Shown here: positions 283 through 37,877 of the stretch, piece after piece
How positions within the stretch are numbered: position 1 is the stretch's first letter
How the letters are laid out: each line of letters begins with the position of its first letter
From: a virus
IMG/VR virus record: IMGVR_UViG_3300044522_000246
Coordinates: 1-37,877 of that record
Length of the DNA stretch: 37,877 nt
Strand: one strand, 5' to 3'
Position numbers and translations under genes: made by a program
Notes under the pieces: model-generated
Databases searched by the model: none
What the model was told of the DNA's origin: nothing
Seen by the model: only the letters and a program-made list of their open reading frames with translations

Positions 283-543
283 ATGGCCTCCCCGGCGTGG
301 CAGCGGAAGGAAGGGCAAAATCCAGACGGGGGACTTAACGCCGCCGGTCGCGCTTCGCTGCGGGCGGCTGGCAAAGATATCAAACCGCCTGTCAAAGCAG
401 CGGAAGCGGCCAAAAGCCCAACGTCTGCCAAACGACGGATCGCGTTTTGTAAGCGGAGTGCTGGGCAGAAGAAGATGTGGCCTAAAGCAGCAGCAGACCC
501 AGAGAGCCGTCTAAACAAAGCAAGGCGTCAATGGGATTGCTAA
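283..543 (+). CDS. DUF6321-like basic phage protein
   Basis: An 86-residue, Lys/Arg-rich protein. It has the layout I associate with phage DUF6321 proteins: an N-terminal W-x-R-KEGQNPDGGLNAAGRAS block, a KPPV stretch, a KRRIAFCKR segment and a C-terminal DPESRLNKARRQWDC block. The function is unknown. It starts 4 bases after the preceding stop, and its last codons overlap the start of the HNH gene (ATG at 531). A second, different version of the same C-terminal block lies downstream of the HNH gene (971-1063), so this gene's 3' end may have been replaced when the endonuclease arrived. Confidence 0.75.
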   Translation: MASPAWQRKEGQNPDGGLNAAGRASLRAAGKDIKPPVKAAEAAKSPTSAKRRIAFCKRSAGQKKMWPKAAADPESRLNKARRQWDC

Positions 544-980
544 CGTGTACACGGTGCAAAACAGAAAAACCAGCAAACGCTGAATTTTTCCCATTGCACA
601 ACAAAAAACATAACGGGCTAGATTCATGGTGCCGTCAATGCCGTCGTGAGTACAAGCGTGGGAAAGTGTTGCCAAAAGGTGTTTCTGATAAAACGCGGGG
701 ATACGAAGCTCGCGCTTTGTTAGAATGCGTAATTTGCGGTGAACCAAAAGATGAAAGGTTTGCCGTAGACCATGACCACAGCACAGGACACGTACGCGGC
801 GGTTTATGCATGAGGTGCAACATGGGGCTCGGGCATTTTCGAGATAACCCAGAACTTCTTCGCTTTGCTGCATTGTACCTTGAGGGTCGTTGCGCTTGCG
901 GAGAGTGTCAGCCGTATTGGGGAGGAGAAGCAGAAGTGGAAGACAAAAACACTGATATGTTCTTCCCGATATGGGCATGA
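531..980 (+). CDS. HNH / endonuclease VII-type homing endonuclease
   Basis: A 149-residue predicted nuclease. The N-terminal zinc finger is C6-x2-C9 ... C34-x2-C37 and the catalytic and structural core is C66-x2-C69, D80-H81-D82-H83 and C93-x2-C96-N97, followed by the usual GLGHFRDNPELLRFAALYL helix. This is the recombination endonuclease VII (His-Me finger) layout common in free-standing phage homing endonucleases, which cut DNA at the allelic site lacking the gene. The ORF begins inside the last codons of the DUF6321-like gene. Base composition is visibly more AT-rich than the neighbours, consistent with transfer. It is intact. Confidence 0.9.
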   Translation: MGLLTCTRCKTEKPANAEFFPLHNKKHNGLDSWCRQCRREYKRGKVLPKGVSDKTRGYEARALLECVICGEPKDERFAVDHDHSTGHVRGGLCMRCNMGLGHFRDNPELLRFAALYLEGRCACGECQPYWGGEAEVEDKNTDMFFPIWA

Positions 981-1063
981 AAGCCAAGCTGACCAGTGCA
1001 GCAACGGCCCGTGACCCAGATTCGCGGATTAACAAGTCACTTCGTGCATGGGACTGCAACTAA
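971..1063 (+). pseudogene. Orphan DUF6321 C-terminal fragment
   Basis: A 30-codon open stretch. Its translation contains TSAATARDPDSRINKSLRAW-DC-N and matches the C-terminal block of DUF6321-like proteins. The upstream full-length gene ends instead with DPESRLNKARRQWDC. The fragment's frame is closed upstream by TGA at 953-955, and it overlaps the end of the HNH ORF. Both copies are followed by TAACGT after the last codon. I read it as the displaced original 3' end of the interrupted gene. It has an ATG but no clear ribosome site, so translation is doubtful. Confidence 0.7.
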
Positions 1064-1405: not shown

Positions 1406-1686
1406 CCGAATTCTTCCTCCGTCTCCTGTGGCCGCTGGTACTGGTCTACGGCATCTACCGATGCTGTGCCACCGCCTCGCTGTTTGCCCCGCTACGGGAT
1501 ACGAGTCCGGTGGAAGAAGACCCGTATACGGTCCATGTGCCTGAAGATTTGGTGGCCGTCGTGTTGCAGTACACCGATAGCTGGGCGCAAGAAGATGTGA
1601 TGAAGTCTATCCGTGAAAAGTACGCCACGTTGCGGGACTGGAACGCAGTCCGCTCGGCCTTTGGTGTTGGGAGGATTGACGCATGA
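1402..1686 (+). CDS. Small N-terminally anchored protein
   Basis: A 94-residue protein using GTG at 1402, which overlaps the stop of the preceding gene (GTGA). This start was chosen over an in-frame ATG at 1348 because the latter would overlap the upstream gene by 58 bases. Residues 4-20 (FFLRLLWPLVLVYGIYR) form one likely membrane helix, followed by an acidic region and a helical C-terminus. It ends with ATGA overlapping the portal start, so it is translationally coupled to it. The function is unknown. Confidence 0.65.
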   Translation: MTEFFLRLLWPLVLVYGIYRCCATASLFAPLRDTSPVEEDPYTVHVPEDLVAVVLQYTDSWAQEDVMKSIREKYATLRDWNAVRSAFGVGRIDA

Positions 1687-3980
1687 CGGGACCGATGTTC
1701 TTTGACGACAACGACCCGATGGGGTTGTTGGCTGACGGCACCGCGACCGTCCCCTCCCTCGACGGCCCGATCCTCGAAACGGAGATGCTTCGGGCGATGG
1801 AAGGGTTGTCCAACGACCCGCTTGGCCCGAACGAGAAGGTCGCGCCCAACCCGCCGTCGAACAACACCAACACCGCCGCCGAAAACGATGCCAGCTTGCA
1901 GCGGGCGTTGTACGGGTACGACTTTCCCGGCGCGGATGGGCAAGACGACATCGACCCGTCTGCGTGGTCGTCGTGGTGCCGTGGCTTGTGGGAGGGTCGG
2001 CGTGATGCGGTGCAGATGCACCTCCACCTCGTCGAACGCAATCGCCTGTTCCGTGCAGGGCAGCAGTGGATTTCGGCCAACGGCATGGGTCCGTGGCGGG
2101 AACCGGCCCGTCCGCGTGATGCGGCCCGTGTGGTGTACAACATGGTCGATAAAGCGTTGGATCAGCGGTTGCAGATTCTGATGGATCAGAAGCCCGGCTT
2201 CTCCGTCACGCCCGTCACGCAAGACCCCGAAGATCGTCGGAAGGCGCAAGCCCAACAGATGGCGCTGGAGTACCAGTATGAGCAGCAAGAGATGCAGCGT
2301 ATGGCGAGGGAAGCCAGTTTCTGGGCGCAAACGGACGGCATTTCCTTCTGGCACGAGTACTGGGACCCGAATCGTGGACCGTGGGACGAGCGCATGGGTG
2401 ATCTTGCTGGGCAGAAGAAGCCCATGGGCGATATTGGCTGTCAAACGCTTCGGGTGGAGCAGGTTCGTGTCTCGCCTAACGCGACCGCGACCCAGCGCCC
2501 ACACTGGGTCATCATTCGTGAGGTGATTTCTCGGAGTGAGGCGGCGTATCGGTATGGCGTGACGGGATTGGACGCCGCCAACACGATGCTGTCCACCAGC
2601 AACGGCCCGACGTACAGCGGCAGTGAAGGGATTGGCGCATGGGTGCTGTCGCAGACCACGATTGGCGAAGGCCAGCGGTTGCGGGATGAGGATGTGACGG
2701 AACGGTTCACGGTCTATCTCCAGCCGCACCCCGATGTGCTGCCCGAAGGCTTGCAGATGGTGGTCGTTGGCGATGAAGTCGTGTTCGGACCCTCACCCCT
2801 TATGTGGAACACGATTCCACTGGTCCCAGTACGCGACGGTTCCAGCGACCCCAGTTACTATCCGCGCCCCGTCATGGAGCAATGGATAGATCACCAGATG
2901 CGGATCAATGCGTTGTTGTCCAAGTGGGTCGAGAACATCCGCGTCAACGCGGGTGGGCGATTCCTGACACGGCCCAACGCCATTGCGACCGAAACGTTCA
3001 TGGGTGGCGTGACCTCCATGATCGAAATTCGTGGCGCAGGTCCGATGTCGGACAGCATCCAGCCTGTCAACGGGTTTAGTGTGGGCAACGATGTCAAAGA
3101 AGCCCTCGCGTTGGAAAAGGGGGCGTTTGAAAACGCCTCGGGCTACAACGCGGTTAGCCGTGGACAGGTGACGGGCGAATCGGGCCGTGCCATCATTGCC
3201 AGCCGTGAACAGTTGGAGCGGGTCTTTAGCCCCGGCGTCAATGCTTTGGCAATGGCCTTCACCGACTGGGGCAAAATCACGCTGGCAGGGATGTCGTGGG
3301 GCTACGATATGCCCCGCTCGCTTGGCGCAGTTGGCAAGGGTCGTCCCGACCTCGCCCGTGCCGTGTCGGCGTCGGACTTTGACGGACAGAGCGATGTGAA
3401 GGTCGAAGCCTCGTCGATGATGCCGATGCCGCTGGCGTTCCGTATGTATATGCTGGACAACTGGCTGCAAACGGGCGTGATCGACATGAAGGAATACCGT
3501 CGTCGCCAGATGTTTGCCGTGGCAGGGGACATCTCCACGCCAGACTCGGATCAAGAAGCACGGGCAAAGCGGGTGGCAGACGCTATTCGGATGCAGACGC
3601 CCGTGCCCGAGATGCGGTGGCAGGACAACGAAGCAATTCACCAAGATGTGCTGGAACGCGAGTTACTGCTCCAAGACGACGTAGAACCGTCCGTCATTGC
3701 CGCTGCACAAGAGCGGTGGGTAGCACTAGCAAATCAAGCGCAGCAGAAACAGGGAGGGGGAGGAGAAGAAGGACCGCCTCCGATGGCCCCTCCCGCTGGG
3801 GCTGGCCCAGCAAGCGGACCCCCCGCAGCCAGTGTACCAAATATCACACCGGGACAGTTACCGCTTGCCAGTGGCAATCCGCCGATTGGGGTCACCAACC
3901 TACTCCAACAGAGTTTGGCTGGCATTCCAGAGGCAGAACAGGCCGCACAGCAAGCTGACATCTTATCCCGACAGCAATAG
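1683..3980 (+). CDS. Portal protein
   Basis: A 765-residue protein at the portal position, before scaffold and capsid genes. Portals form the dodecameric ring at the capsid vertex through which DNA enters and leaves, and dock terminase and then the tail. Visible support: length close to the P22-type portals (about 725 residues), the segment RAGQQWISANGMGPW near residue 125, then a long helical RRKAQAQQMALEYQYEQQEMQRMAREASFWAQTDG stretch and repeated acidic and aromatic segments typical of the family. The last roughly 85 residues are low-complexity Gly/Pro/Gln-rich, beginning near QQKQGGGGEEGPPP, probably a flexible tail. The start codon overlaps the preceding stop. Confidence 0.85.
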   Translation: MTGPMFFDDNDPMGLLADGTATVPSLDGPILETEMLRAMEGLSNDPLGPNEKVAPNPPSNNTNTAAENDASLQRALYGYDFPGADGQDDIDPSAWSSWCRGLWEGRRDAVQMHLHLVERNRLFRAGQQWISANGMGPWREPARPRDAARVVYNMVDKALDQRLQILMDQKPGFSVTPVTQDPEDRRKAQAQQMALEYQYEQQEMQRMAREASFWAQTDGISFWHEYWDPNRGPWDERMGDLAGQKKPMGDIGCQTLRVEQVRVSPNATATQRPHWVIIREVISRSEAAYRYGVTGLDAANTMLSTSNGPTYSGSEGIGAWVLSQTTIGEGQRLRDEDVTERFTVYLQPHPDVLPEGLQMVVVGDEVVFGPSPLMWNTIPLVPVRDGSSDPSYYPRPVMEQWIDHQMRINALLSKWVENIRVNAGGRFLTRPNAIATETFMGGVTSMIEIRGAGPMSDSIQPVNGFSVGNDVKEALALEKGAFENASGYNAVSRGQVTGESGRAIIASREQLERVFSPGVNALAMAFTDWGKITLAGMSWGYDMPRSLGAVGKGRPDLARAVSASDFDGQSDVKVEASSMMPMPLAFRMYMLDNWLQTGVIDMKEYRRRQMFAVAGDISTPDSDQEARAKRVADAIRMQTPVPEMRWQDNEAIHQDVLERELLLQDDVEPSVIAAAQERWVALANQAQQKQGGGGEEGPPPMAPPAGAGPASGPPAASVPNITPGQLPLASGNPPIGVTNLLQQSLAGIPEAEQAAQQADILSRQQ

Positions 3981-36040: not shown

Positions 36041-36571
36041 GTGTCAAAGACAGCGATAGCGAGTGGGGCAGACCGACAGCGGCGGGAAGAAATCGTGGAA
36101 GCCGTGCTGAGTGGGATGGCGGATGGCAAAACGCTGCAGGAAACGATCAAGGAAGTGGCACGGGCACGGGGAGAAGTGATTCGGCCCGGATCGGTACGGA
36201 TGTGGATTACGCTGGATGAAGCGTGGTATCTGCGCTATCAAAAAACAAAAGCCCTATTAGGGCAGGCATTGGCAGAGGAAGCCATTGTGGTGGCACGGGA
36301 AAGCACGTCGAGTACGACAGCGATGGATCGGGTGCTGATTGATACGTTGAAGTGGGCAGCATCAAAGGCCAACCCACTGGAGTATGGGGAGAAGCAGACC
36401 GTAGAGCATCAGGGCACACAAACGCTACAGGTGAAGGTTGTGGAAGATGATGCGCCAGTACGGAATGAGAAGGCGCTGAAGAATGTGATGGTAGCGGCGA
36501 CCGTCACGTCTACCTTAGCGGTGGGAGCAGGGGTAGCAGGGGGTGACTGGAGTGACGGGGGTAGTAGGTAG
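36041..36571 (+). CDS. terS: Terminase small subunit
   Basis: A 176-residue protein from GTG 36041, with GGAGG 6-10 bases upstream. The N-terminal helix-turn-helix-like part (REEIVEAVLSGMADGKTLQETIKEVARARGEVIRPGSVRMWITLDEAWYLRYQKTKALLGQALAEEAIVVA) and the segment DTLKWAASKANPLEYGEKQTVEHQG are typical of phage small terminases. It recognises the packaging site and brings the large subunit. The C-terminus is Gly/Ala/Val-rich. It lies directly upstream of terL. Confidence 0.85.
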   Translation: MSKTAIASGADRQRREEIVEAVLSGMADGKTLQETIKEVARARGEVIRPGSVRMWITLDEAWYLRYQKTKALLGQALAEEAIVVARESTSSTTAMDRVLIDTLKWAASKANPLEYGEKQTVEHQGTQTLQVKVVEDDAPVRNEKALKNVMVAATVTSTLAVGAGVAGGDWSDGGSR

Positions 36572-36694
36572 GGGGGTGACTACGCAGTCACCCTAACGAG
36601 TAACAGCAACAGCTCTTTTATTAGTAACAGAGAAACAGAGTAACTGAGTAACTGAGTAACTAAGGAACTAGTACACTAGGTAACTAGAGAGACT
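36572..36694. other. terS-terL intergenic segment
   Basis: 123 bases. A perfect 8-bp inverted repeat GGGTGACT/AGTCACCC at 36574-36593 (4-base loop, no U-tract) overlaps a 20-bp block also found inside the initiator gene. An AT-rich 8-bp repeat array then runs to the terL ATG. No clear Shine-Dalgarno for terL. Confidence 0.75.
36623..36694 (+). repeat. Nine-unit 8-bp repeat array before terL
   Basis: Units in order: AGTAACAG, AGAAACAG, AGTAACTG, AGTAACTG, AGTAACTA, AGGAACTA, GTACACTA, GGTAACTA, GAGAGACT. The array runs without gaps from 36623 to the base before the start codon. Consensus AGTAACTN. Confidence 0.85.
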
Positions 36695-37877
36695 ATGGCA
36701 TCGGTTCGTGGAAAGCATAGACATGGCGCTTCATCCGCTGGGGAGGTGGAAGTCCGCCTCCACAGACGGCATCCGGGGCAGGTGGCTATTGCCACACACC
36801 CTGCCAGATTCCGGGTGGTGATGTGTGGACGGCGGTGGGGGAAGTCGGCCTGTGGCATCCGAGAAGCCAGCGATGTAGCAATTGCAGGACAGCCTGTGGG
36901 GTGGTTTGCGCCGTCCTATAAGCTGGCGCTAGAAGCGTGGCGGGAGCTGGTAGACCGTCTGGCCCCTATCACGGCCCGCATGAACGAGCAGGATAAGCGG
37001 CTAGAATTGGTGACGGGCGGGATTATTGAGGTGTGGACGCTGGACACCCCCGATCCGGCCCGAGGTCGTAAATATGCGCTGGTGGTGATCGACGAGGCGG
37101 GTATTACGCGGGATTTGCTGGAAGTCTGGCAGTCTGCGATCCGCCCCACACTGGTTGACCTGAAGGGTCGGGCGCTAATCTTGGGCACCCCAAAGGGCCG
37201 GAGACATGGGTTTGTCGTGTTATTCAACCGTGGGTTAGGCGAAGACCCCGATTGGGCATCCTTCCGTGCCTCAACGCTAGAAAACCCGTACATCCCCGCC
37301 GAAGAGGTGGAAGCCGCCCGTCGAGAGCTGCCGCCCGAAGTGTTTGCCCAAGAATTTGAAGGCATCCCGACCGACGATGGCGCAAATCCCTTTGGCTTGG
37401 AAGCCATCCGTGCCAGCCTTGGCCCGCTCTCGGACCAGCCCGTCGTGGTCTACGGCGTCGATTTGGCCCGAAGCATGGACTTCACCGTGCTGGTGGGGTT
37501 TGACGCCTACCGCAGAGTGGCCTTTCTGGACCGCTGGCAGGCTCCGTGGGCCACGACAAAGGCACGGATAAGGGGTAGGGTAGGGGACACGCCCGTTGTG
37601 GCGGACGCGACGGGGGTTGGCGATGCGATTGTGGCCGATCTGCAAGTCATGGGGGTCAACGTTACGCCCCATGTGTTTACGCAGTCCTCCAAGCTCCGCC
37701 TCATGCAACGCATGGTGGCCGCGTTTCAAGGCAAAGAACTCACCCTGCCCGATTCAGAAGACGCCCGATGGCTGACCTCCGAGATGGAAGCCTTTGAGTT
37801 TACCTACACGGCGACAGGCGTCCGATACGAAGCCCCGTCTGGGTTCCACGATGACGGTGTGATGGCGGTGGCGCTGG
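36695..37877 (+). CDS. terL: Terminase large subunit (3' end beyond the window)
   Basis: 394 residues are visible. The ATPase domain has Walker A CGRRWGKS at 44-51, Walker B LVVIDEA at 129-135 and coupling motif GTPKG at 164-168. The RNase H-like nuclease has GVDLARS (D256), VVADATG (D304) and the terminal FHDDGVMAVAL (D386, D387). It pumps DNA through the portal and cuts it. ATG 36695 is the first start after an in-frame TAG at 36677. The frame is open at the window's edge; joined to base 1 it would continue in phase to the stop at 276-278. Confidence 0.9.
   Translation, partial: MASVRGKHRHGASSAGEVEVRLHRRHPGQVAIATHPARFRVVMCGRRWGKSACGIREASDVAIAGQPVGWFAPSYKLALEAWRELVDRLAPITARMNEQDKRLELVTGGIIEVWTLDTPDPARGRKYALVVIDEAGITRDLLEVWQSAIRPTLVDLKGRALILGTPKGRRHGFVVLFNRGLGEDPDWASFRASTLENPYIPAEEVEAARRELPPEVFAQEFEGIPTDDGANPFGLEAIRASLGPLSDQPVVVYGVDLARSMDFTVLVGFDAYRRVAFLDRWQAPWATTKARIRGRVGDTPVVADATGVGDAIVADLQVMGVNVTPHVFTQSSKLRLMQRMVAAFQGKELTLPDSEDARWLTSEMEAFEFTYTATGVRYEAPSGFHDDGVMAVAL

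Follow-up and report, generated by a model that had tools for sequence, protein, structure and literature searches.

Organization of the locus

The stretch of DNA considered here (the window) is a viral sequence of 37,877 bp, corresponding to positions 1 to 37,877 of IMG/VR record IMGVR_UViG_3300044522_000246. In the related phages G001, G002 and G004, the two ends of the window (36260–37877 and 1–457) align close together, and the record is therefore likely to represent a circularly permuted phage genome that is complete or almost complete. The region of interest lies at the left end of the window and comprises the following features, in which empty alleles are alleles without the endonuclease and L numbers denote loci from the database searches described below.

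9–278: small gene at the left end of the window, first in the gene order
283–543, + strand: DUF6321 gene (Pfam PF19846, 55 bits)
283–457, + strand: 5' part of the DUF6321 gene, 58 codons plus 1 nt in length, which stems from the recipient and matches the empty allele without a break
458–543, + strand: replacement 3' end of type A (SAGQKKMWPKAAADPESRLNKARRQWDC, stop codon TAA), which came with the endonuclease and is missing from empty alleles
458–972, + strand: whole insert, or mobile unit (replacement end plus endonuclease, 515 bp), delimited by the alignment break 457/973 against L007 and L008
531–980, + strand: ORF of a free-standing Endo VII/DHHRN-type endonuclease (PF02945, phrog_2633 and Hpy99I matches)
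971–1063, + strand: displaced native 3' end of DUF6321, type B, with homology from about 973 (96.9% nucleotide identity to L008 from 973 onward)
1079–1405, + strand: downstream gene forming the right flank, function not assigned, continuous with the empty allele (100% amino acid identity with L007 and L008)
1683–3980: portal gene, to the right of the 1079–1405 gene

The DUF6321 ORF and the HNH ORF agree with the original prediction, made from the letters of the window; the ATG of the endonuclease sits within the Trp codon of the DUF6321 gene. It also reported a second DUF6321 C-terminus after the HNH ORF, and this second end is real: the 30-codon ORF at 971–1063 matches the last 28 positions of DUF6321-containing PHROGs (E 5.9e-13), although the homology begins only at about 973, the ATG at 971 having been created by the junction. 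The elements said to be common to both DUF6321 ends, GACCCAGA and TAACGT, are found at both. The insert of about 515 bp thus consists of 28 alternative C-terminal codons, a new version of the last third of DUF6321, and the overlapping endonuclease ORF. AlphaFold places the junction within a long helix (46–65) of the window DUF6321 protein (mean pLDDT of the model, 92.7), so the end brought in would be part of the folded protein rather than a loose tail. A fold search with DUF6321 gave no match.

An endonuclease ORF that breaks a gene at a precise codon is also what a self-splicing intron or an intein would produce. An intein is excluded by the in-frame stop at 541–543, and an intron is hard to reconcile with an insert that is coding over nearly its whole length and supplies a complete gene end of its own. 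An Rfam scan detected no intron family, the sole listed match (PVT1_6) being below the gathering score and outside the element. An intron or intein, from which the original prediction had already distinguished the arrangement, is therefore extremely improbable.

Empty and occupied alleles

When IMG/VR was scanned with the DUF6321 protein, 80 loci were obtained, five of which (L005, L006, L007, L008 and L032) have a single DUF6321 gene and no endonuclease. The HNH-less allele that had been predicted, in which DUF6321 runs directly into ...TSAATARDPDSRINKSLRAWDC, thus exists. The L007 and L008 contigs are about 95% identical to the window over several kb. Their alignment with the window consists of two blocks separated by four recipient bases, positions 1–457 (97.4% identity) and 973 onward (about 97%), with a flank identity of 97–95%. 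The empty gene of L007 and L008 ends in ...FCKRMKGMKAKLTSAATARDPDSRINKSLRAWDCN, the same end that lies stranded in the window, and the flanks align; 458–972 is therefore the insert. At the junction codon, L007 reads CGG/ATGAAGGGGATGAAAGCC (here and below, a slash marks a junction). The displaced end of the window is 100% identical in amino acid sequence to the end of L007, whereas the inserted end differs, and comparison of the displaced end with L005–L007 revealed three to four synonymous and no nonsynonymous differences. The original prediction had pointed to junctions near 465–475 and 968–975; the alignment break lies at 457/973. L081 and L082 share the right junction, and the left one is found in many contigs, so an assembly fault in a single contig is excluded.

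L009, which is occupied, and the empty L076 form a second pair, with 94% identity on either side of a break at the same codon. The left junction of L009 is TGTCGGCGC/AGTGCAGG and the right junction GTATAAA/CGCATGAAGGGC; L076 reads TGTCGGCGCATGAAGGGC, and no recipient sequence was lost in L009. The right junction of the window has lost about 11 bp relative to L009. This loss removed the original stop codon of the endonuclease, and the window enzyme is therefore two codons longer, terminating in ...FFPIWA where its relatives stop after FFPI or FFPV.

These empty alleles support the model put forward in the original prediction, in which the endonuclease arrived with a replacement 3' end and left the old end behind. 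The existence of two versions of the gene end would also be expected if tandem DUF6321 genes had surrounded the HNH gene and the second had lost its 5' part. Two full DUF6321 genes, the arrangement that the original prediction had named as a sign of simple duplication, were found in 0 of 270 loci, and tandem duplication was rejected on this count. Furthermore, the left flank and the displaced end of the window together make up the single gene of L007 and L008, which leaves this explanation very little probability.

The old end is not always retained. L001, L003 and L004 have the unit, but of the old end or the sequence beyond it they retain only 5–13 bp. In L095, compared with L040, the gene has been replaced from around codon 37 as far as the intergenic region and no displaced end is present, a sequence pattern that fits ordinary co-conversion.

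Two other features of these loci were recorded. L040, an empty allele, has a tRNA-Trp gene (516–590) between DUF6321 and the next gene, and this tRNA gene is missing in the occupied L092 of the same clade. An ORF with an LTHEGAHS or LTHELGHA motif lies downstream of DUF6321 in L005 (654–1526) and upstream of it in L039 (1196–1888); judging from the motif, it may encode a metallopeptidase, and no family match at the cut-off was found for it.

The endonuclease

The window endonuclease matches PF02945 (Endonuclease_7, E 5.7e-18) and PHROG 2633 (endonuclease VII, E 1.3e-27). The PF02945 match covers residues 65–118 of 149, behind an N-terminal CxxC...CxxC segment. The best PDB match of the catalytic part is Hpy99I (3fc3), both in sequence (E 1.7e-7) and in fold (E 1.5e-5 with the predicted structure, the TM-score of the whole model being low, at 0.36); Hpy99I differs in being a restriction enzyme, one that has a methylase partner. 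Nine residues (C66, C69, D80, H81, H83, R89, C93, C96 and N97) are invariant in 23 sequences, and they form the catalytic motif CxxC - DHDH - R - CxxC - N of the DHHRN family. This family of homing endonucleases was defined with F-CphI from cyanophage S-PM2, so that a phage homing endonuclease is already known among Endo VII-type nucleases (PMC6083498). As in other members of the DHHRN family, the motif lies in the C-terminal part of the protein, in contrast to the T4 Endo VII resolvase, and the gene is present in one and absent from the other of otherwise near-identical genomes (the window versus L007 and L008; L009 versus L076). The dN/dS values of 0.08–0.19 indicate that the endonuclease is kept under strong purifying selection.

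Mobility and recombination of the unit

The unit is more conserved than its surroundings, with 82–95% identity where the flanks are 65–76% identical (window–L086 and L085–L086). Between L085 and L086, the replacement end is 95% and the HNH gene 90% identical, against 65% for the N-terminal part of DUF6321, 73% for the next gene and 76% for the portal gene. A tree of portal proteins shows occupied and empty phages mixed within clades, with nine changes, at least six of which are forced by well-supported branches.

Window 531–980 was also compared with L001 1789–2232: the HNH gene is 87% identical, the flanks 97–99% and the replacement end 100%. Such divergence of the HNH gene between near-identical flanks means that the units also recombine among themselves. 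A recombination joint was observed within the HNH gene, roughly 115 nt past its start. In family-wide trees, the number of end-type changes is similar on the endonuclease tree (19) and on the tree of the N-terminal part (17), so recombination also separates ends from endonucleases, and type A ends are found on DUF6321 genes without HNH.

These observations bear on the possibility that the endonuclease simply resides behind a type A DUF6321 gene and is swapped as a cassette by homologous recombination, the displaced end being a by-product and the nuclease playing no part in its own spread. Type A ends without a nuclease, end types that recombine relative to the nuclease on the family trees, and the resemblance of the L095/L040 pair to a plain conversion tract all speak for such an exchange. 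A homologous crossover would, however, remove the recipient end rather than strand one, whereas in independent lineages both junctions fall at one and the same codon, the right one within the recipient gene. The strong purifying selection on the nuclease also speaks against passive exchange of this kind, which is considered unlikely.

Distribution across the family

Searches with the window endonuclease and three family alignments yielded 248 family loci, forming 110 clusters at 90% nucleotide identity. The DUF6321 end lies at most 120 nt from the endonuclease start in 245 of the 248 loci, and an identical 10-nt overlap is found in 77 of the 110 clusters. Displaced ends were scored with end-type HMMs and accepted at a threshold of at least 30 bits. 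The original prediction raised the question of whether a second C-terminus always follows, and it does not: a displaced end is present in 14 of the 110 clusters, the others having scars or nothing. For the 96 clusters without a displaced end at this threshold, simple carriage through the 3' overlap or full co-conversion is a sufficient explanation. When the same HMMs were applied to 838 kb of relatives as a control, there was no reverse-strand match and no forward match beyond the DUF6321/HNH locus, which shows that the second DUF6321 end is not due to chance.

The combinations of resident over displaced end in the 14 clusters are A over B (seven), A over C (three), C over B (two) and one B subtype over B (two); the two types differ in all 14 only if the B subtypes are split, and this may not exceed chance. 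Complete displaced ends (L009, L146, L149 and L203) share the same insertion codon, FC.R/M, and the unit is located at this one codon, FC[KRA]R/M.., in several lineages and over different displaced end types.

In L169, L170, L381 and L397, the reading frame of the endonuclease continues past the HNH core into the stranded end, fusing the two; the old DUF6321 end has there become a tail of the nuclease. Only a short tail, such as SLRAWDC, remains in L153 and L159. Nuclease ORFs ending in Cys, which resemble scars, occur in 31 of the 110 clusters, compared with 10% of control frames; the scar count uses W-x-C endings only (nine), some of which may be coincidental.

Such fusions could suggest that the displaced end is itself the selected gene, either as a 30-residue peptide or as an endonuclease tail. 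The ATG codons at its start, its being in frame in the window and in L009 and L012, and the exclusively synonymous differences between the window and the empty alleles are in keeping with this idea. Synonymous differences as few as these also fit a recent event, and in the close relatives L001, L003 and L004 the displaced end is missing or down to a few codons, which makes selection for the end itself distinctly improbable.

Public contigs contain the empty, occupied, scarred and fused stages alike, and the life cycle of the element (gain, displacement, decay and loss) is therefore directly testable.

A mirror case at the 5' side

In three loci (L011, L012 and L087), a further, different HNH gene lies on the 5' side of the same DUF6321 gene. 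The order of this mirror element is a stranded N-terminus (MASPAWQRAEGKNPEG...), the HNH ORF and a new N-terminus (MGYKTEAWQRKEGQAEEGG), which overlaps the 3' end of the HNH gene in another frame. The element occupies 2069–2700 in L011, with the HNH ORF at 2125–2685 (PHROG 1035, E 6.6e-26); this HNH protein is unrelated to the window endonuclease. L009 provides the empty allele, being 96% identical to L011 with a break at GAAGG/TGGCC.

Proposed mechanism

The reading best suited to the sequence evidence is that the window carries a free-standing homing endonuclease of the DHHRN type, mobile together with a gene end that probably resists cleavage; we assign it a probability of roughly 85%. The endonuclease would cut DUF6321 ends with M-x-G-M (types B and C) at the FC.R/M codon. 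The broken left arm would then pair, in a one-sided manner, with a donor allele at the conserved FC.R region, the donor end and the endonuclease would be copied, and the right arm of the break would be rejoined beside them. That one-sided invasion came first and rejoining second is inferred from the junctions. The new end would restore the gene, and its differing site sequence makes resistance to cutting probable: types B and C have M-x-G-M right at the insertion point and type A has S-A-G-Q, which would explain the resistance of A alleles. The stranded end may then decay, be deleted or turn into an endonuclease tail. Once both flanks match, the unit could spread by ordinary homing through gene conversion, which would be able to replace the old end without a remnant, as between L095 and L040.

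It is also reasonably likely that a phage-wide class of end-swapping homing elements exists, in which an endonuclease is welded by overlapping frames to an exchangeable 3' end (a 5' end in one lineage), combining immunity, host-gene repair and mobility in one short unit. Each invasion by such an element would alter the C-terminus of the host protein, and the stranded end could become a nuclease tail.

Comparison with known systems

The end-replacing arrangement, which the original prediction held to be inference, is not unprecedented. Mobile ORFs of fungal mitochondria behave alike: the same order of parts has been described in the mitochondria of Glomus sp. (atp6, atp9, cox2 and nad3) by Beaudet and colleagues, who cite atp6 of Allomyces macrogynus as the first reported end-replacing case (PMC3630166). 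In these systems, a foreign 3' end completes the host gene and is followed by the endonuclease ORF and the displaced native end. The displaced end is closer to the uninterrupted genes of relatives than the inserted end is, as in the window. The fungal enzymes, however, are of the LAGLIDADG or GIY-YIG type and mitochondrial, and some are in phase with the host gene, whereas the window has an Endo VII-type enzyme on a virus contig. The phage case further differs in its out-of-frame overlap, in the large number of independent cases affecting a single gene family and in the one 5' mirror.

F-CphI is likewise a free-standing phage endonuclease with a C-terminal Endo VII motif, in which CxxC, DHDH, R, CxxC and N are conserved. 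It targets psbA, and self-cleavage is prevented by a separate group I intron (collaborative homing), whereas protection of the window unit would come from the alternative gene end that it carries. The seg and mob endonucleases of phage T4 are also free-standing, often overlap the upstream ORF and spread by break repair with co-conversion (intronless homing), but they adjoin genes or split a gene in two; the T4 review gives 3' overlaps of 11–24 bp in the listed cases, together with split genes (PMC2988022). No case was found in that review of a gene whose end had been replaced and whose native end lay displaced. An open-access library of papers yielded no paper on DUF6321 and no report of end replacement in phages. 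As far as found, the arrangement had been described only in fungal mitochondria, and it is recurrent here across phages.

These loci connect a large phage family with a mechanism that had been put forward on the basis of a few fungal mitochondrial genes. An endonuclease without splicing can invade the interior of a coding sequence without breaking the gene, and such elements may be one way in which modular variation arises at the C-termini of phage proteins.

Ten isolated phages (T7-like, Streptomyces, Arthrobacter and Synechococcus phages) were searched for displaced ends beside other host genes, and none scored above shuffled sequences. Self-similarity above shuffles in L096 was discounted, as it involved out-of-frame low-complexity stretches. 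In the Synechococcus phage S-SRM01 (L120, MW015081), an endonuclease of the family lies 49 bp past a long gene (124294–126123 of the record) that ends in a DUF6321-like domain, and this isolated phage could possibly serve as a laboratory system.
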